The notes under the pieces are model-generated. The model did not search any database. It was not told the DNA's origin and saw only the letters and a list, made by a program, of their open reading frames with translations. A DNA stretch of 64,000 bases, taken from NCBI GenBank assembly GCA_937139405.1, contig CAKZPV010000031.1, positions 1 to 64,000 of the forward strand. The letters are read 5' to 3'. A program made the position numbers and the translations under genes. Positions 21,516 through 31,517 of the stretch are shown in pieces. This DNA is from an uncultured Nitrospirota bacterium. Its GTDB lineage: Bacteria > Nitrospirota > Nitrospiria > Nitrospirales > UBA8639. Every line of letters begins with the position of its first letter. The stretch's first letter is position 1.

Positions 21516-24500
21516 TCACAGATCAGTTTTACCTAGACCTTCACCAACAAGGGAAAATGCCGCCCAGGCATAAGGGTGAGCAAAGTAACGATACTTCGGG
21601 GTTTTTCTTGCTTTCTCTAATAATGCGAGCATGCCCTCTTGAAGAGCCTTAACAGGTGATAGTGAGGACGCGCCCCCGTAGCGCTTAAAAATTTCGCTCA
21701 TCAGCACCTTCGTCGCCTCATCATCCACACTCCATTGCGAAACTAAAAGAGCCTTAGCACCCGCAAAGAAGAAAGCACGGGCCAAGCCAGACAAACTTTC
21801 TCCACTTCCATCATCTCCTGCGGTATTGCAAGCGGAGAGAATCACCCAATCTGTATTTGGGAGTTTGAGCTGTAGAATATCTTCCATAGATAAGAGCCCG
21901 TCATTTTCTTCGGTCGGAAGGGCCGGAGGGGTGAGGACGAGTGCTGGTTGAGTCACACCCTGGACTTCGCCTGCAAGTAAGCCGTGGGTAGAAAACGCAA
22001 GTACCTTCGCTTGGCCAAGTCTTCCACTCTCATTGAGGCGACGTACTTCACTTTCGGTTGCATGCGGACCGAGAAACACCGCAGCGTCCGGGTCTACATC
22101 CAGAATTGATGCCACAGTCAATAATTCTTCCCGGGTTCCAGGCAAGCGATCAAGCGCATGTAAGGAGTCCATGGCTACGCGCATCCCTCGGCTGGCCATC
22201 ATTTTTCCTCCGCGCTGATTACCCCTGCCGCGCAGTACCGGGTCACCAAATCCGAGAAACGGCTCCCCTTCGCCTTGATGCTCGACCAGGTTATCTCGGA
22301 GCAATTTGAGTGCCGAAACCGATGGCAAGATAGTCAAGGCATAGGATTGGACCAGCCACGGTAACCTTGCATAATCCGCAAAGTCTTGCTCCGTGGGTGC
22401 CTGCCTGCGATGATAGAGATCGTCTAAATGGGAAAACGCGGACCCCTCAGCATGCGCGAGCAAAGCCGCGAAGGGGAGAGGAAGAAGCACCTCGTCGGGA
22501 ACCAAGATGATGTGTTTGATTTCCGTAAGTGATGAAAGGATGGGCGCGAAGAGATGTTGGAACAATTCTGCTGAGCTTTCTACGTCATAAGGAGCAAGCG
22601 TGGCTTCACCCGTATCCATACTGATCGCTCCTTCGAGGCTTCCTCGAATTTTTTGAACAAGGCCGCTCAGCTTTGCTCGCGGAATTCCCACTTGGCGGTA
22701 CAGTATAGGATGCTCAGCTCGAAGCAGCCAAATCTGGAGCCGATCACCTAATGTAGAAAAGCTCACAAGCGCTTCATTAGCTCTTAGCAAGCGTTGGGCG
22801 TGCTCAATGCTTAATGATTCAGGCTGGGATAACTCTGCATAGCGTGGTACCTCAGCTTTGAGGCGCAGGTTCATCTGAGTCAGAGCGCCTTGTACCTCAG
22901 CGAGTTGATGCTTCAGAACAGCTAATTCCTCAGCGGACCGTTGCTTGTCAGGTAACCCATAGAGCCCATTCAGGTGAGTCCACAGTTCCTCCCGGTTACG
23001 GCGTAATCCCTTGACCAGTTTCACGAGACTTCTTTCCGTGGCAGTTCCAACCTCCCGCTGTACAAGCACGTTGGCGACAGCAGCCTGCATCAACCAGCCT
23101 CGTGCCTGTTGAGAGACTAGAAAACCCTCCGCAATTGCAGATCGCTGTTCAGAGTTTTTTTGTGAATCATGTGCCTGAGTTGCAAGAAGCAACGCATAAT
23201 CTTGGAGGCCCTTCATGTCTATTTTCCAAATCCGACTCAAAGCCTTATCATCAAGTCCAGGGTTCAGACCCTGTTGGCTTTGAATGATACGGCGCGCCCG
23301 TTCATACAACGAACGAGCGATGGTGAAATGCCCCAAAGCATGCTCAACCCGGGCCAAATCGAGGAGACTCGCAGCGCCGTCGCGGTGAGATGTCCCTAAG
23401 GATTTTTCGCGAATCTCTACAGCACGGGCGAAGCGTGATTTGGCGAAGGACAAATTTTGATTGCGAGCCTCCAGATAGCCTAACCTGGTTAATGTCTGAG
23501 CGACCGATGTATGCTCGCGACCCAAAGATTGCTCCTGGATGTGAAGCGCTTGCTGCAGAAGCTCCCCTGCGGCCTTACGATCACCTTGTCGGCGCTTTAC
23601 TTCAGCCAGCTCGATGAGGGAGAGAGCCACAAAAGGATGAGTAGAACCAACAGTCGCATTCTGGATTTCTATCGCTCGCTCAAATTGACGACCAGCATCA
23701 GCCACTTTTCCCAAGCTTAGCTTTATCAAACCAATCTCATAAAGAATCCCAGCTACTTCCGGATTGTTCTTCCCGTAGCGATCTTCAGTGATGACCAGAG
23801 CCTGCTTCAGTAGTGGCAACGCTGCGACGGCATTCCCTTGTTTTCGTTCAAGCATGGCAAGTTGGGCCAGAGCTCCAGCAAAATCAGGATGATGAGAACC
23901 TGAGATCTGTTCAAAGAGCTGCAACGATTCCTCAAGAGACGAACGAGCACCTTCAAAATTCCCGAGACGCGCAAGGATATTGCCTTCCACGTTTACTGCC
24001 ATAGCCAATTCCTGAGATCGAGGCGGACTCGCGGCGCGCAGAATTATGAGGGCTCTTTCAGCCAATTTCTGCGAGTGCTCCAGTCGACTTAACCCTCGTT
24101 GCGCTATGGCCAAATGCGTGAGTGTTACGGCCACTTCAGGGTGAGAGGGACCGAGCGCTTTCTCGCGAATCTCAAGACTCTGCTCGAGGGTGCGGATGGC
24201 TCGCACGAAATCTCCCGCGGCGTACATCACCGTAGCCAAATTCGTCAGGCTCTCACCTACTTTCAGATCGTGGCCTTCCTTTGCCGTCAGTCGGTATATG
24301 GCGAGGGCCCGTTCAAGCAAAGTTTTTGCTTGAGGCAACTCGACAAGTGTGCCATGGATTAAACCCAGGGTGGTCAATGCTGAAGCTAAGTCTATATGGG
24401 TAGAGCCGAGAAACTGTTCACGAAGAGTCACGGCTTGATGAGCCAACGGCAAAGCCTTCAGGTAGTGGCCTTGTTCAAAGAGCAACTGAGCTTGGTCATG

Positions 24501-24686
24501 CTGAACGTTAGCTTTTTGCAGGCGTTCAATTTGTTCGGGGTGGAGTAAGGCGGAGTGAGAGACAGGAGCAGAACGCATGCTTGCACCGGCCAAGAAAAGT
24601 TGGCCAGTGCTCATGAACACAATAGTAAGTAAGAGAGTTGGCAATAGCCTATCTTGCCAACCCTGATTTTGCCCCTTCCTCACCAT
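21516..24686 (-). CDS. TPR-CHAT caspase-like peptidase, exported
   Basis: A 1056-residue protein starting with a membrane or signal segment (LLPTLLLTIVFMSTGQLFLAGA). About ten 42-residue TPR units of the kinesin-light-chain type fill residues 60-480, with the repeating A-x-x-YERALAI pattern. A helical bridge leads to the CHAT domain (about 720-1050). Both catalytic residues are present: His901 in FSTHGLL and Cys953 in LSACNTAG. CHAT is a caspase-related cysteine peptidase, and the TPRs probably select the partner. It is the second gene after the TPR-barrel gene, 43 bases away, and both diverge from a large secreted FecR protein. Confidence 0.9.
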   Translation of the reverse strand: MVRKGQNQGWQDRLLPTLLLTIVFMSTGQLFLAGASMRSAPVSHSALLHPEQIERLQKANVQHDQAQLLFEQGHYLKALPLAHQAVTLREQFLGSTHIDLASALTTLGLIHGTLVELPQAKTLLERALAIYRLTAKEGHDLKVGESLTNLATVMYAAGDFVRAIRTLEQSLEIREKALGPSHPEVAVTLTHLAIAQRGLSRLEHSQKLAERALIILRAASPPRSQELAMAVNVEGNILARLGNFEGARSSLEESLQLFEQISGSHHPDFAGALAQLAMLERKQGNAVAALPLLKQALVITEDRYGKNNPEVAGILYEIGLIKLSLGKVADAGRQFERAIEIQNATVGSTHPFVALSLIELAEVKRRQGDRKAAGELLQQALHIQEQSLGREHTSVAQTLTRLGYLEARNQNLSFAKSRFARAVEIREKSLGTSHRDGAASLLDLARVEHALGHFTIARSLYERARRIIQSQQGLNPGLDDKALSRIWKIDMKGLQDYALLLATQAHDSQKNSEQRSAIAEGFLVSQQARGWLMQAAVANVLVQREVGTATERSLVKLVKGLRRNREELWTHLNGLYGLPDKQRSAEELAVLKHQLAEVQGALTQMNLRLKAEVPRYAELSQPESLSIEHAQRLLRANEALVSFSTLGDRLQIWLLRAEHPILYRQVGIPRAKLSGLVQKIRGSLEGAISMDTGEATLAPYDVESSAELFQHLFAPILSSLTEIKHIILVPDEVLLPLPFAALLAHAEGSAFSHLDDLYHRRQAPTEQDFADYARLPWLVQSYALTILPSVSALKLLRDNLVEHQGEGEPFLGFGDPVLRGRGNQRGGKMMASRGMRVAMDSLHALDRLPGTREELLTVASILDVDPDAAVFLGPHATESEVRRLNESGRLGQAKVLAFSTHGLLAGEVQGVTQPALVLTPPALPTEENDGLLSMEDILQLKLPNTDWVILSACNTAGDDGSGESLSGLARAFFFAGAKALLVSQWSVDDEATKVLMSEIFKRYGGASSLSPVKALQEGMLALLEKARKTPKYRYFAHPYAWAAFSLVGEGLGKTDL

Positions 24687-24729
24687 AAGATCTTAGCGGA
24701 AAGTTGTCTGGCACCCTCTGTCTCAGGAG

Positions 24730-26406
24730 CTAATACGCCCAGGTGACCAAGCCGGTAAAGACATTTTGTTTATAAGCATAAAGAGGAACATCACTGTTAT
24801 TGAACACATGCTGATATTGCGCCGTGACCGACCAATGCTCACTGAAGGGATAGACTAGCTGAGCCGTGTGAGTCTGTTGCGTATCATCACGCCGACTAAA
24901 TTGTCCGTTATCATCCCGAAAGAGCGTTTGGGAATTCTTATAATCGCGACGGTGCACATCATAGTCATAGCGGACAATCAACCCACCAAAAGGGAGCGTC
25001 GATTGCACCCCGGCTTGCAGCCGATGGCCTCGATAAGAGAAAGCCGTACCCTTCGCACTTTCGTTGTCATATTGGTATCCCACTCGTACAATGTGCTTAT
25101 CCTGTGCGAACCGAAAGGCGTGGACGATCCCGAACAAGTTGTTATAGGCATCTCGCTGTTCGCTCGTGAAACGAAAATCGGTATTAGCAGGTTCCCGAAA
25201 AAAGTCTTTCTTCTGCCACCGGCCAATCGCACTAGTAAGATTGCCCACCGTCCCCAAGCCTGGCACAGAAAACGAAGGGGGCACGACAGAAACAGTCAAC
25301 GTGGGACTGTGCGACGACGTAAAACCCGCATCCTCTAAAAAGATATAGTTATAGGTATATTGCACCCCAATCTGAAAGGGGACATTCCCAAAAAGCCCGC
25401 GATAAAAACCGCTCACACTCGGTAGGTGACTCTGAATATTGAACTCGTCCAAATCATCCTTGAAATTGAGCGTTTGAAGAAAGGCATAATTCACGGTAGC
25501 TTCAAAGGGCCCTTCGCGGTAAAACGCGTAGTTGCCCACTAACGACCCAATAAATCCAGGGGATTTGGTTTTCCGATCCCTCAACGAGCCGAGAAGAGCA
25601 TTGGTTCCCGGATCAGGGGTCATGTCACTGCGAGGATTGACCGCCACGTTGTCATTATAAAACCCGCCGGCACTGATTTGGAGCGTTAACCGCTTAGCTT
25701 CATCGATTCCTCGACGAGCAGCAATGGCTTGTTGGATTTGCAGGGCTGGTCCGCTAAAGGGTAGCCCACCATCGGTCTGTTCCAGTTGTCGCAACTCTGC
25801 AGAGGCTTCATCGGACAAACCTAAGACCCCGAGCGCAAGACCTCGATAAAATGTTGTCAACTGCTGAAGATTGGAATCCGTCGTCTTTGTGGCATTAAAG
25901 GCTTCAACAGCCTGTTCATAATTCTTCTGCCGGTATCGACTCAACCCTACGTAGTATCCAAGATTTTCTGATGAGGGATCGGCCTGATAGGCCTGCTCCA
26001 AGAGCGGCGTGGCCTCGTCGTATTGCCCAGCTGTAAAATAGGCGATACCGAGTTGATACCCAATGGTCGGATCGGTGGGCTGAAGTTCTCGGGCCGCTTC
26101 CAAAGCGGTCACCGCCTCAATCGGGTCCTTAAGAGCCAGCTGAGTCAGTCCCAGATAATAGAGCCCTCGAGCATCCTGAGGGTTTAACTCTCGGGCCTCG
26201 GCAAGCAGTCGTTGGGCATCTTCATAGCGCTTTTCGTCATAGGCGACGACTCCCTGAGCAACAAGGACTTCCGAGTCTGCTAACTGAGTGTCCGCAGCAA
26301 CAGCAATTCCACCTTCCAGAGCCAGGAACAACACAAAAACCGAATGAATCAGCATTAATGCATATTTAAAGGAACACGAGTTTCCCTTCCCTCTCATGTA
26401 AGCCAC
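24730..26406 (-). CDS. TPR plus outer-membrane beta-barrel protein (Slam-like layout)
   Basis: The 558-residue product has a signal peptide ending near AVAA, about five TPR units (residues 45-215), then roughly 320 residues of alternating aromatic/polar strands. It ends VTWAY, close to an outer-membrane barrel signature. A periplasmic TPR module joined to a barrel of this size is the layout of Slam (surface lipoprotein assembly modulator, DUF560) exporters. Similarity in architecture is clear; sequence identity to Slam cannot be judged by eye. It is the promoter-proximal gene of the operon with CHAT and lies back to back with the FecR gene, which could encode its client. Confidence 0.8.
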   Translation of the reverse strand: MAYMRGKGNSCSFKYALMLIHSVFVLFLALEGGIAVAADTQLADSEVLVAQGVVAYDEKRYEDAQRLLAEARELNPQDARGLYYLGLTQLALKDPIEAVTALEAARELQPTDPTIGYQLGIAYFTAGQYDEATPLLEQAYQADPSSENLGYYVGLSRYRQKNYEQAVEAFNATKTTDSNLQQLTTFYRGLALGVLGLSDEASAELRQLEQTDGGLPFSGPALQIQQAIAARRGIDEAKRLTLQISAGGFYNDNVAVNPRSDMTPDPGTNALLGSLRDRKTKSPGFIGSLVGNYAFYREGPFEATVNYAFLQTLNFKDDLDEFNIQSHLPSVSGFYRGLFGNVPFQIGVQYTYNYIFLEDAGFTSSHSPTLTVSVVPPSFSVPGLGTVGNLTSAIGRWQKKDFFREPANTDFRFTSEQRDAYNNLFGIVHAFRFAQDKHIVRVGYQYDNESAKGTAFSYRGHRLQAGVQSTLPFGGLIVRYDYDVHRRDYKNSQTLFRDDNGQFSRRDDTQQTHTAQLVYPFSEHWSVTAQYQHVFNNSDVPLYAYKQNVFTGLVTWAY

Positions 26407-26596
26407 CTACCTTCCTAGTAAGTTTAAATAACACTAATGGAATTATTATGCTGCTATTGGTACAGTCATGTGAATTTATCAGGAAAGCGAAGGCGCCATC
26501 TTTACGAGAATGACAAAAAGAGTCAAGAGAAAAATTGAAAATTTTAGGTATAGGCCAAGCAAAAAACCGTCTCACATGAACGAAGGAGTTTCCTCC

Positions 26597-29284
26597 ATGT
26601 CTAAGTCACTACTTTCAAGGGCATTTGTCCTGCTACTCATTGCGACGCAGATTTTGGGTCCAGGTGTCTTGTGGGCGGCTGAGCAACGCGGCATTCAAAT
26701 CGAAGCCAACGACCGCATAATAATTTCAGCCCTTAATGAAGGAACCTTGATCGGGGAGTCTAGCAACGAGTCAAGAACACTCCATTTTGGTGATGCGGTA
26801 AACGTGGGAGAGCAAATCAAGACGGGAGACAACACCATGGCCGAAGTGCTCATCGGCAATCGCGTGGTGGTCACCTTGGGAATGAACACGACTGCTCAGT
26901 TGACGACCCTAAACCGAGAGCAGGCAACTTTACAAGTAAATAAAGGCATCGTCCGAGTAGCAGCTTCATCAGAAGCATTAGGGGAAGAGGGCTTGGTAAT
27001 CATTCAAACACCCACCAATCAAGTCAGAACACGTGGTGGCATTGTTCGAGTGATGATCAAGACTCCCAATGACTCGATCGTGCACCAACCCCGAGAAGCG
27101 AAGCTTCATTACGTGTCCTTCACACCCTATACCCTGGTAGCAGCCCTTGATGCTGATGGCGACATCATCCAGATCGAAGAGGGCACCGCTGAGATTCCCG
27201 AAGCTGGTCCCGGAGGTGAATCCCTCACCATGCATTCAGGTCAGAGTATGACATTTCCGTCTGAACAGACTGGCTCGGTGGCGGAGCTAGAACCACAAGA
27301 CAACATGCGGACTGGAGTCTTGGCCAACACCAAACATTCTGATACCCCACAAGAAGGTCTAGATAATCTCATCGCTCTTCAGGTAGATCAGGCAACCCAA
27401 TTGGGCCAGGCATTGACCGGTGCGGAAAAAACAGGGCAAGACGAATCGGGCAAGGGAGACGACAGTGAAAACGTCATCAATGGCGCCACGGGGGGAGTGC
27501 AAGTGGCCAATGTTGTCAGCACATTGTTTAGTAATGGAAATGCATCGGATCCAGGCTCCTCCAATCCGGTTAACTCCCTTGGGGGAGGGTTTTCCAAACT
27601 AAAAAGCAATGGCACAGAACCAGCTGTAGGCTCAACCCAAGGCTACACGGTGAGTGTGAACGGAGGAGAAAAACCCTTGCTAATATTTACCAAACAGGAA
27701 CCAGTCCAAACGCATTTTAATGGTGCTCCATGTGGCTTAGATTGCGTCGGAACTGTACCTAGTCTGAATGATCTGGAGTTCGTACCTCTTCTACCACCAG
27801 TTACCAGCAAGATCACGGTGGAGAGAGAATTAGTATTGGTGGGAGGGATACCTAATAACTTTCATGGCGGGATAGCCCCAATAGATAGACTTATTGTTAG
27901 GGGAGTCAATTCAGTATCTAATATTGACATCCCCGCTACAACAACTAACGATCCATTCCAGGACATGACAGGCTTGAGTCCCTTAGCAATTCGAGAGGCC
28001 AACAGCACCTTCGTATTTCGGGAAGGACTTGATCAGTTCGGCAATAGTACCCTAGGAGTACAAGGGAGTGAAATTGATACTTTTGTTGGGGGAGGAGGTC
28101 CTCTTTATGGAGGAATTTTGGGGCAATTCTCTAACGATTCAGCTGGACCTGCCACGACATTTCTGAATCTCCCCACGACAGAACAGTTGATTGGGAAGGT
28201 CACCCGTTCTATTGAGGGTCTAAACGGGAAAGGAGTTACTGGTGCCATCACTGCCACCGGAGCTAATGTAATTCTCACTGGAGGAGTGACTTTGGATCGA
28301 GGGACTGTGGCGACCATTGGTGAGACCGCCGCGACCAAAGCATATTTCACAAGCCCTGGTGGGCCAGGTGCTATGTTTACGGACTCCGCCGCCCTCTTTA
28401 GCGGGTCTCTGCTGGCGGTCATCGATGGACAAACGGGCCCCGCTGCCGTGACAGTGGAAGATCGACTACTTGGCGTCTACGATGGCAGTGAGATCCTGAT
28501 TCCCGAGAATGGGGAAAATAAGGCCCTCTTGAGTGTGTTGGATGCTAAGCTCAAAGGACCACCTAACATACCACTGATTGAGATTAATAACGCGTTTAAG
28601 GATGCGGATATGAGTAACGGCTCAGAGTCCGGCGATACTCCTAAAGTCACGGTCACCTCTGCCGTAGTCACACGTTCCACCATTCCGTTAGATAGCGCTC
28701 TGGTTGAAGCCTCCGCTCCCTTACTAGCTCTAACACAGGCGACAATGACCACCAACAGTCACTTCGCCGACTTGGCAGGGAACCAGGCAACTTCGATCCA
28801 GTTGAATAAGGATGCCCTCGTGGCCCTCAATGCGTCACAGTTGATGATTAACAATGGGCACCTGCTAAATTTATTTAGTGCCTCCGCCACTGTAGAAGGT
28901 TTTCTCTTCTCCTTGAATGACACTAGCAGTCTAACGATCGCCGATGGAACGCTCTTTAGCTTAAACGAGGGGTCAGCGTTAAACCTAACGGCCAGTGCCT
29001 TTGGTGTGTTTGGGAATGGAAACAATACCCTGGCAATTACAAACGATTTGTGCGCAACTGCATGCGGCACCTTGGTGAACAGCGCGAATAATCCATTCAT
29101 GCTGCCTAATGGCTCACCCTTACAGGCTGCAGGGGTGACACAAAACGTAGTACTGCCAGACGGCTTTAAGCCGTTCGCATTAGCTGACGGCGCACCCACA
29201 CCGAATATTACCGTAGAAGGCGCCCTCTTCGAGGTCAATACAGGCTCCACCCTGACCATCAACCAGACGGCCGTAGTGAACTAG
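26597..29284 (+). CDS. large secreted FecR-domain protein with a beta-rich repetitive tail
   Basis: The ATG at 26597 is chosen because GGAG lies about 9 bases upstream and a signal peptide ending VLWAAEQ follows at once. In-frame ATGs at 26510 and 26576 add an unlikely basic extension. Residues 30-230 form a FecR-type domain (VNVGEQIKTGDNTMAEVLIGNRVVVTLG, QVNKGIVRVAA, QTPTNQVRTRGG). Here it lacks a sigma-factor-binding region, so it is probably structural. The remaining 660 residues are low in charge and rich in Thr/Ser/Asn/Gly. Short units such as LFSLNDTSSLTIADGTLFSLNEG recur, as in beta-helix surface proteins. It is likely a cell-surface or secreted passenger of the neighbouring barrel. 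Confidence 0.8.
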   Translation: MSKSLLSRAFVLLLIATQILGPGVLWAAEQRGIQIEANDRIIISALNEGTLIGESSNESRTLHFGDAVNVGEQIKTGDNTMAEVLIGNRVVVTLGMNTTAQLTTLNREQATLQVNKGIVRVAASSEALGEEGLVIIQTPTNQVRTRGGIVRVMIKTPNDSIVHQPREAKLHYVSFTPYTLVAALDADGDIIQIEEGTAEIPEAGPGGESLTMHSGQSMTFPSEQTGSVAELEPQDNMRTGVLANTKHSDTPQEGLDNLIALQVDQATQLGQALTGAEKTGQDESGKGDDSENVINGATGGVQVANVVSTLFSNGNASDPGSSNPVNSLGGGFSKLKSNGTEPAVGSTQGYTVSVNGGEKPLLIFTKQEPVQTHFNGAPCGLDCVGTVPSLNDLEFVPLLPPVTSKITVERELVLVGGIPNNFHGGIAPIDRLIVRGVNSVSNIDIPATTTNDPFQDMTGLSPLAIREANSTFVFREGLDQFGNSTLGVQGSEIDTFVGGGGPLYGGILGQFSNDSAGPATTFLNLPTTEQLIGKVTRSIEGLNGKGVTGAITATGANVILTGGVTLDRGTVATIGETAATKAYFTSPGGPGAMFTDSAALFSGSLLAVIDGQTGPAAVTVEDRLLGVYDGSEILIPENGENKALLSVLDAKLKGPPNIPLIEINNAFKDADMSNGSESGDTPKVTVTSAVVTRSTIPLDSALVEASAPLLALTQATMTTNSHFADLAGNQATSIQLNKDALVALNASQLMINNGHLLNLFSASATVEGFLFSLNDTSSLTIADGTLFSLNEGSALNLTASAFGVFGNGNNTLAITNDLCATACGTLVNSANNPFMLPNGSPLQAAGVTQNVVLPDGFKPFALADGAPTPNITVEGALFEVNTGSTLTINQTAVVN

Positions 29285-29645: not shown

Positions 29646-31517
29646 ATGTGGGCCTTATCTTATTTTTCTTCTGCTACTGCTCTGGCAGACGTTCAATCAC
29701 TTACTGCAAAGACCCTGTTTCAACAAGAAAAAATTTCCAAACTTACGGACCCTTATGCCATTTTGTCGGCGCACTATGTCGCCATCGGAGGCCTAGAACG
29801 TCTAAAAAACGAAAAAACTTCCTATATGCGGGGAACCATACGCTTTGCAGAAATGGATGGTGAACTTCAGGTGTGGGCAGAGGGAATACGATATCGTCGA
29901 GAAGTTGATTACCCCGCTTTTTCTCAAATTGAAGGGGATAATGGCTCCTACATGTGGTCGGTGGATCTGAATAACAAACAGCTAGTTTATAAAGATCCTG
30001 AAACGTTAAAGAGGAGGAAAATCAGAGAATTACTTGAAGACTTTGAAAATTTTAATCCCATGAGTGAATACTTTGAGCTGATATTTAAGGGCATCGACGA
30101 TGTAAACGGTGAACAATGCTATGTCATTGAGACCCGCAATACGATCAATCGCGATGTTTACTATGATTACTTCAGTATCGAAACTTTTCGGCTATTACGA
30201 CAGACCATCCAAGAACCGTATTTGAAAATTACGACCCATTACAGCGATTTTAGAACTTTGAATGAGATGACGTATGCCTTCCGAAGTGAAACAGACATTT
30301 CTCCAACCGGGAAAAACATCCTCATCCAAACGGAGAAACTCTCAATTAATCTCCCCGTTAAGCAAGAAACATTTGCACTTCCTGAAAAAGACGTTCGAGA
30401 TTTCTCTTTTGACAACACTTTCAATACGGAAGCCATCCCTTTTCTCTTTGTTGAGAATACGATATTTCTTCCTGTCGCACTTCATGGCGAGACACATTAT
30501 TGGGTGCTTGATAGCGGTGCTGATATGTCGGTTATCGACGCCGATTATGCCAATAGGCTTGGCCTTACACAAAAGGGGGTGCTTTTAGGAAACGCTACAA
30601 ATAGCTTGGCAGAGTTTTCTTTTGTGAACCTGGCAGCGTATCAGGTACAAGGACTCAAGCTTTATGATCAAACCATATTGTCCTACAAGGGCTTGGCTTC
30701 CAAATTCTATGAACCTGAAATTGTGGGGATTTTAGGGTATGATTTTTTATCACGTTTTATCACCAAAGTTGATTATTCCAAACGTCACGTCTCTTTCTAC
30801 GATCCTGAGACCTTTGTTTATAAGGGCCAAGGGCATCGTATTGATGCTCCATTGCAAAATAGGCTTTTTATGCTGCCGATGCGAGTCAATGAAACCTTTG
30901 ACGGTCGGTTTGGGTTAGATCTCGGGTCATTCGATGTCACAATGAATTATCGTTTTGCCAGCAAGCATGGGTTTTTAGAGAAAACAGGAATTAAACGACT
31001 AAGCTCGGATATTTCAGGCATGTTTTATGAGTATCAGATTAAAACACAGTCATTAGAGTTAGCCGGCTATCAAGTCAGAAATGAATTAATGAGCTTCCCT
31101 TTAGCAGAGGGAATTGGCACAAATTCCAATGAAGAATTAGACGGGCTGATCGGGAATACGCTTTTGCGGCATTTTACCCTCTATCTCGATTATAAAAATC
31201 AACAACTGATCTTTGAAAAAGGGGAAAATTTTGACCATGGGTTCCCCGTAGACAAAAGTGGAATGACTATTGGCTTATCTCCCAATAATCAGACCCAAAT
31301 TTTTTTGGTGGTCGACAATACCCCTGCGCATGACGGAGGTTTTTTACCAGGAGATATTATTCTCGGGATTAATGATCTTGAAGGCGAATCGTTGCCGAGC
31401 ATTGTTAAATTAAAGCACATGTTTCAGGCCGAATCTGGAACAGATTACACACTCAAGCTCTTGAGAGATAAACAGAAAATAATATTACCCATACGACTGA
31501 AAGACCTCTATGAATAA
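29646..31517 (+). CDS. retropepsin-like aspartyl protease with LolA-like and PDZ domains
   Basis: A 623-residue exported protein. Residues 30-240 resemble the LolA/outer-membrane lipoprotein-sorting fold (ERLKNEKTSYMRGTIRFAEM, YVIETRNTINRD). Residues 265-390 form a retropepsin-like half with catalytic WVLDSGAD (Asp289) and a later VGILGYDFLSRF. A second half at 395-530 has GLDLGS where DSG or DTG is expected and then DGLIGNTLLRHF. The C-terminal 75 residues form a PDZ domain (GFLPGDIILGIND). The sequence before the ATG (IFTTFKYIVCGV) reads like the missing start of the signal peptide, so translation may begin at a non-ATG codon such as ATT 29610. Its substrate is unknown. Confidence 0.82.
   Translation: MWALSYFSSATALADVQSLTAKTLFQQEKISKLTDPYAILSAHYVAIGGLERLKNEKTSYMRGTIRFAEMDGELQVWAEGIRYRREVDYPAFSQIEGDNGSYMWSVDLNNKQLVYKDPETLKRRKIRELLEDFENFNPMSEYFELIFKGIDDVNGEQCYVIETRNTINRDVYYDYFSIETFRLLRQTIQEPYLKITTHYSDFRTLNEMTYAFRSETDISPTGKNILIQTEKLSINLPVKQETFALPEKDVRDFSFDNTFNTEAIPFLFVENTIFLPVALHGETHYWVLDSGADMSVIDADYANRLGLTQKGVLLGNATNSLAEFSFVNLAAYQVQGLKLYDQTILSYKGLASKFYEPEIVGILGYDFLSRFITKVDYSKRHVSFYDPETFVYKGQGHRIDAPLQNRLFMLPMRVNETFDGRFGLDLGSFDVTMNYRFASKHGFLEKTGIKRLSSDISGMFYEYQIKTQSLELAGYQVRNELMSFPLAEGIGTNSNEELDGLIGNTLLRHFTLYLDYKNQQLIFEKGENFDHGFPVDKSGMTIGLSPNNQTQIFLVVDNTPAHDGGFLPGDIILGINDLEGESLPSIVKLKHMFQAESGTDYTLKLLRDKQKIILPIRLKDLYE

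Follow-up and report, generated by a model that had tools for sequence, protein, structure and literature searches.

How three adjoining genes of an uncultured Nitrospirota bacterium, encoding a TPR-plus-barrel protein, a secreted FecR-domain protein and a TPR-CHAT peptidase, might act together is the question raised by this locus, which lies in a 64,000-nucleotide stretch of DNA (the window). A preliminary description had likened the barrel to Slam-type exporters, with the FecR protein as a possible passenger and the CHAT enzyme as a possible processing protease. The gene positions that it gave, the 43-base, operon-like gap between the barrel gene and the CHAT gene downstream of it, and the divergent FecR gene were all found as described:

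21516..24686, minus strand: TPR-CHAT peptidase gene, 1056 aa
24730..26406, minus strand: TPR and beta-barrel gene, 558 aa, starting at GTG or at the ATG at 26397
26510..29284, plus strand: FecR-domain protein gene (longest ORF), 924 aa

Since a Shine-Dalgarno motif, AAGGAG, precedes the ATG at 26597, the FecR gene probably starts there, which makes a product of 895 aa likelier than one of 924 and comes close to the 896 residues given earlier. As judged by eye, all three proteins have signal-peptide-like N termini. Adjoining the module, at 29646-31517 of the window, is a gene for a 623-aa protein in which two stretches match aspartyl-protease-2 (retropepsin-like) and which also has a PDZ domain.

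The 558-aa protein is laid out as a putative signal peptide, a TPR domain (residues ~40-232), a barrel (240-558) and a C-terminal aromatic residue, Tyr. Pfam detects TPR repeats in it, and an AlphaFold model built with 33 homologues (pLDDT 86) places 14 beta strands after the TPR domain, the modelled barrel overlaying the 14-strand porins CymA (Z 22) and OmpG (Z 20). The window protein itself has no match to SlipAM (PF04575) at E ≤ 0.01, nor is SlipAM among the best 25 families listed for it at E ≤ 0.1; the window's own genome contains zero SlipAM matches, and no solved Slam structure appeared among the listed matches of the fold search. The connection runs through the relatives of the protein. 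An orthologue from a CHAT locus of genome G054, 49-50% identical to the window barrel, scores 28.6 bits against SlipAM (cut-off 22), and three FecR-linked relatives reach 37.1 (L215), 48.2 (L223) and 59.5 bits (L236). A barrel-only HMM of the window family detects these proteins at 1e-10 to 1e-19; genuine Slam proteins follow at 4e-5 to 1e-3, and up to E=10 it picks up no unrelated ORF. A profile-profile comparison of the barrel alone with SlipAM gives an E-value of 2.6e-11. On this combination of family scores, profile comparisons and the 14-strand model, we assign the window barrel as a distant relative of SlipAM/DUF560 that shares its TPR-plus-14-strand layout with the barrels of type XI secretion (TXISS), which have 14 strands and periplasmic TPRs (PMC8406197). 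The proposed likeness to Slam is thus borne out by distant homology through the family and by layout, but not by the window protein's own score, which lies below the Pfam cut-off. Nine of the ten SlipAM/DUF560 sequence clusters hold no characterised protein (PMC8406197).

The FecR protein appears to consist, in the numbering of the 924-aa ORF, of a signal peptide, a FecR fold (~70-260), a low-confidence linker (~264-584) and a beta-helix (~585-920). FecR is its only Pfam match and is weak in the window copy (19 bits for the protein and 24.5 bits in the genome search, against a cut-off of 24); the fold is confirmed by the model, in which residues about 98-272 superimpose on anti-sigma periplasmic domains (4m0n, Z 13.7; PupR, 6ovk, Z 13.5). 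The C-terminal part is modelled as a right-handed beta-helix that resembles autotransporter passengers (UpaB, Z 12.6; Vag8, Z 12.4), with no translocator domain found within the protein; mean pLDDT is a modest 59, the helix region lying mostly at 70-90. Across relatives the FecR domain is constant while the whole proteins range from ~250 to 2772 aa, an exoprotein-like pattern. At two CHAT loci the FecR-beta-helix gene occurs as a tandem pair of copies (L041:10932-17317 and L192:1190-6751). As had been noted earlier, the product begins with its signal-peptide-like segment and has no cytosolic sigma-binding N terminus.

The 1056-aa protein, in which an N-terminal hydrophobic segment is followed by a TPR array (~60-490) and a CHAT domain (704-1049), is predicted from its sequence to be an exported caspase-fold peptidase. 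Pfam assigns TPR_12 at 1e-60 and CHAT at 2e-50, the latter far above its cut-off (172 bits vs 24), and the reported catalytic dyad, His901 and Cys953, is intact and kept in 8/8 CHAT proteins of the window type. Lipobox-like N termini in some CHAT and caspase orthologues weakly suggest that these are anchored in the envelope. Secreted proteins processed by caspase-like peptidases are known (PMC3482391), and literature searches on CHAT together with FecR or two-partner secretion found nothing. In a plasmid collection, CHAT relatives are present in rhizobia and cyanobacteria, no FecR or barrel homologue stands beside those examined by HMM, and the window FecR protein has zero matches. A single-protein scan of named genomes returned only a TPR match, in Spirosoma.

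Elsewhere in the same genome (L072:5334-9410; G000:C20:75333-79409), a 1358-aa protein combines an N-terminal TPS secretion domain with a C-terminal CHAT domain, and its gene overlaps a ShlB-type TpsB gene by 4 bases; from this layout it is predicted to be a CHAT peptidase secreted by the two-partner route. In a relative (L179:2338-11318), genes for a TPS-domain exoprotein (917 aa), TpsB, a TPR-CHAT protein and a CHASE2 cyclase follow one another on one strand, closely spaced or slightly overlapping, and CHAT-CHASE2 pairs occur again in L177 and L178. The TPS-CHAT fusion and the L179 gene row thus tie CHAT peptidases of this group to outer-membrane protein export.

Whether the three genes belong together was addressed by counting linkage around barrels with at least 4 kb of flank on both sides (n=62) in a phylum sample supplemented with close relatives. 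A FecR gene lies within 5 kb of 54 of these 62 barrels, and within 1 kb of 47. Chance would produce such linkage in about 1 of 100 cases, according to our own rough estimate from the few FecR genes per genome, and a chance neighbourhood was rejected on the count. FecR is usually the next gene, downstream on the same strand in 44 and divergent in 28 of 80 cases; orientation varies between lineages, so the linkage outlasts rearrangement, and barrel and FecR are a conserved pair across the phylum. CHAT joins this pair as an optional third member, in a minority of cases. The window type was found at eight loci in seven genomes:

the window
L037, a paralogue in the same genome
L039
L041
L057 and L175, one locus split by a contig end
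L190
L192
L193

CHAT directly follows the barrel on the same strand at seven of the eight and adjoins FecR at the rearranged L037; in the first 60 genomes, all five window-type CHATs, recognised by frame and match length, sit at barrel-FecR loci. Recurrence next to each other is consequently the rule for the pair and the exception for the trio, CHASE2 being a commoner companion than CHAT. The barrel nearest to that of the window in a quick tree, L192 (66% identical), comes from a genome that belongs to a different family within the order and is also at a CHAT locus. Between FecR and the barrel at L037 (11651-14260) lies a gene for an 869-aa protein, possibly a second cargo, that has RTX calcium-binding repeats and the domains PKD and DUF4114.

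At the other barrel loci, the third place is taken by a CHASE2 adenylate cyclase in 24 cases, a WD40-caspase (C14) in three and a ShlB-type TpsB in two, with none detected at 59, and cAMP-phosphodiesterase-like genes occur at several. The kind of third gene follows the form of FecR. CHAT or C14 accompanies the beta-helix form at 10 of 18 loci vs 1 of 61 others (Fisher p 3e-7, kinship ignored), whereas that form is found at none of the 24 CHASE2 loci, and CHAT and CHASE2 never share one barrel locus. No protease is present at 8 of the 18 beta-helix loci, which means that export does not depend on CHAT. The caspases include a WD40 protein of 1400 aa whose C-terminal domain is C14 and whose N terminus is lipobox-like, encoded at two barrel-FecR loci that have no CHAT (L051:12053-16255 and L054:3317-7519). 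CHAT and C14 are distinct families within one peptidase clan, and it therefore looks as if each was recruited separately to beta-helix FecR loci.

The most economical account, and the one we prefer while rating its chances slightly below even, is that of an outer-membrane surface-protein module encoded by all three genes. In it, the 558-aa protein would be a divergent Slam-like translocon, with a periplasmic TPR domain and a 14-strand barrel, and the FecR-beta-helix protein its dedicated cargo, which would first be exported by Sec, then dock through its FecR domain on the TPR domain or barrel in the periplasm, and have its beta-helix tail handed over to the cell surface or anchored there. Cleavage of this cargo or of the barrel complex would fall to the exported TPR-CHAT protein, acting as a clan-CD cysteine peptidase, and would lead to maturation, release or turnover. 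The passenger and processing roles suggested for FecR and CHAT are in this sense plausible; both the export of the FecR protein by the barrel and its cleavage by CHAT are inferred. In favour of this account we count the 54/62 linkage, the SlipAM homology and the 14 strands, the variable FecR length, the autotransporter-like tail that lacks a translocator, the RTX/PKD protein of L037, the protease association (10/18 vs 1/61) and the TPS-CHAT protein of L072. Against it stand the missing SlipAM match of the window barrel, a cargo that has no 8-strand barrel, FecR partners of which many have just 300-400 aa and no evident passenger, the lack of a protease at 8 of the 18 beta-helix loci, signal peptides judged by eye, and a recognisable third gene that is mostly a cyclase, which fits sensing better. 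One could go further and speculate that the FecR domain is a docking signal for large beta-helix surface proteins, and that exported caspase-fold peptidases, CHAT and separately C14, were recruited more than once to process them in a protease-coupled Slam-like route, although we regard this extension as rather doubtful.

The cyclases raise a second explanation, which we take as a serious possibility though well short of an even one, namely that barrel and FecR make up an outer-membrane/periplasm sensing unit of a trans-envelope sensor with a swappable output, usually an inner-membrane CHASE2 adenylate cyclase and here an exported CHAT cutting an envelope target. The 24 CHASE2 loci, the phosphodiesterase-like genes and the mutual exclusion of CHAT and CHASE2 at barrel loci agree with this, as do the proposal that a four-gene cluster of Campylobacterota is one signalling pathway (PMC9239204) and the presence of FecR and TPR proteins among the Clr targets of Sinorhizobium meliloti, which has CyaD1 (PMC5498481). 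The window trio, however, has no adjoining cyclase, sigma factor or transmembrane transmitter, its contig contains no CHASE2 match, and the barrel is related to an exporter; the count of 0/24 for the beta-helix form moreover implies that CHAT loci may have changed function. Export and sensing may also be combined: a protein shown on the surface could signal to a cyclase through its periplasmic FecR domain, or have that domain cut by CHAT. It is improbable, by contrast, that CHAT is an unrelated neighbour and the unit only the barrel-FecR pair: most barrel loci do indeed have no CHAT, but this sits badly with the placement of all five CHATs of the first 60 genomes at barrel-FecR loci, and with its fixed position directly downstream of the barrel at all but the rearranged locus. 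We give even less credence to a polysaccharide export porin, a TPR-barrel like PgaA or BcsC whose beta-helix partner binds or trims the polysaccharide. BcsC is the top Foldseek match of the barrel protein, beta-helix folds include lyases and epimerases, and PgaA proteins also touch the SlipAM model (PMC8406197); yet the match to BcsC has a TM-score of only ~0.3 with an rmsd >13, the barrel has 14 strands and not 16, and no polysaccharide synthase was found among the neighbouring genes examined.

That barrel and partner travel together throughout the phylum suggests a little-studied way of displaying large proteins at the surface, or of sensing from it. The FecR-linked barrel family provides a class of cargo that can be tested and perhaps a docking domain; it connects the FecR/TPR/CHASE2 signalling clusters, so far unexplained, with a barrel that resembles protein exporters. 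It also places a CHAT peptidase outside the cytoplasm beside surface-protein genes, a setting on which our literature searches found no paper.

Among known systems, two-partner secretion (TpsA/TpsB) likewise has a large beta-helix exoprotein encoded beside an outer-membrane barrel, but the window barrel has no POTRA/ShlB part and the exoprotein no TPS domain; it was rejected since the trio lacks matches to PF08479, PF03865 and PF05860. Classical FecR anti-sigma/FecA signalling shares the periplasmic FecR fold, whereas here there is no cytosolic sigma-binding part, and no TonB receptor or sigma factor was seen adjacent. It was rejected on the domain layout of the FecR protein, and to that extent the earlier judgement that it is unlikely stands, while the CHASE2 loci and the Campylobacterota cluster (PMC9239204) keep another signalling role under consideration. 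With type XI secretion (Slam; SlipAM, PF04575, DUF560) the module shares the signal peptide, periplasmic TPRs, 14-strand barrel and adjacent secreted partner, together with a barrel homology detectable through family members. It differs in that the window barrel falls below the SlipAM threshold, that cargo known from TXISS has an 8-strand barrel at its C terminus where the partner here is a FecR-beta-helix protein, and that this partner has no evident lipobox. As both the cargo barrel and the protein's own SlipAM match were looked for and neither was found, we do not assign the module to type XI secretion. A close parallel for the core pair is the Campylobacterota cluster of a CHASE2 cyclase, a phosphodiesterase, a FecR 'outer membrane' protein and a TPR protein (PMC9239204), in which a FecR-domain protein is again linked with a TPR protein, the likeness being at the level of the TPRs; barrel relatives in the window's phylum also carry CHASE2 cyclase and cAMP-phosphodiesterase-like genes, but the window locus has no cyclase and has instead an exported CHAT peptidase and a long FecR beta-helix. 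The cAMP regulator Clr of Sinorhizobium meliloti, a species with the CHASE2 cyclase CyaD1, counts a FecR protein and a TPR protein among its targets (PMC5498481). The earlier remark that no described system with this exact trio is known agrees with the literature searches, which returned nothing on CHAT with FecR; the FecR/TPR pair, in contrast, has been reported, together with cyclase and phosphodiesterase. In light of these two precedents, the barrel-FecR core pair is probably of a cluster type already known but still unexplained, with the CHAT version as a variant.
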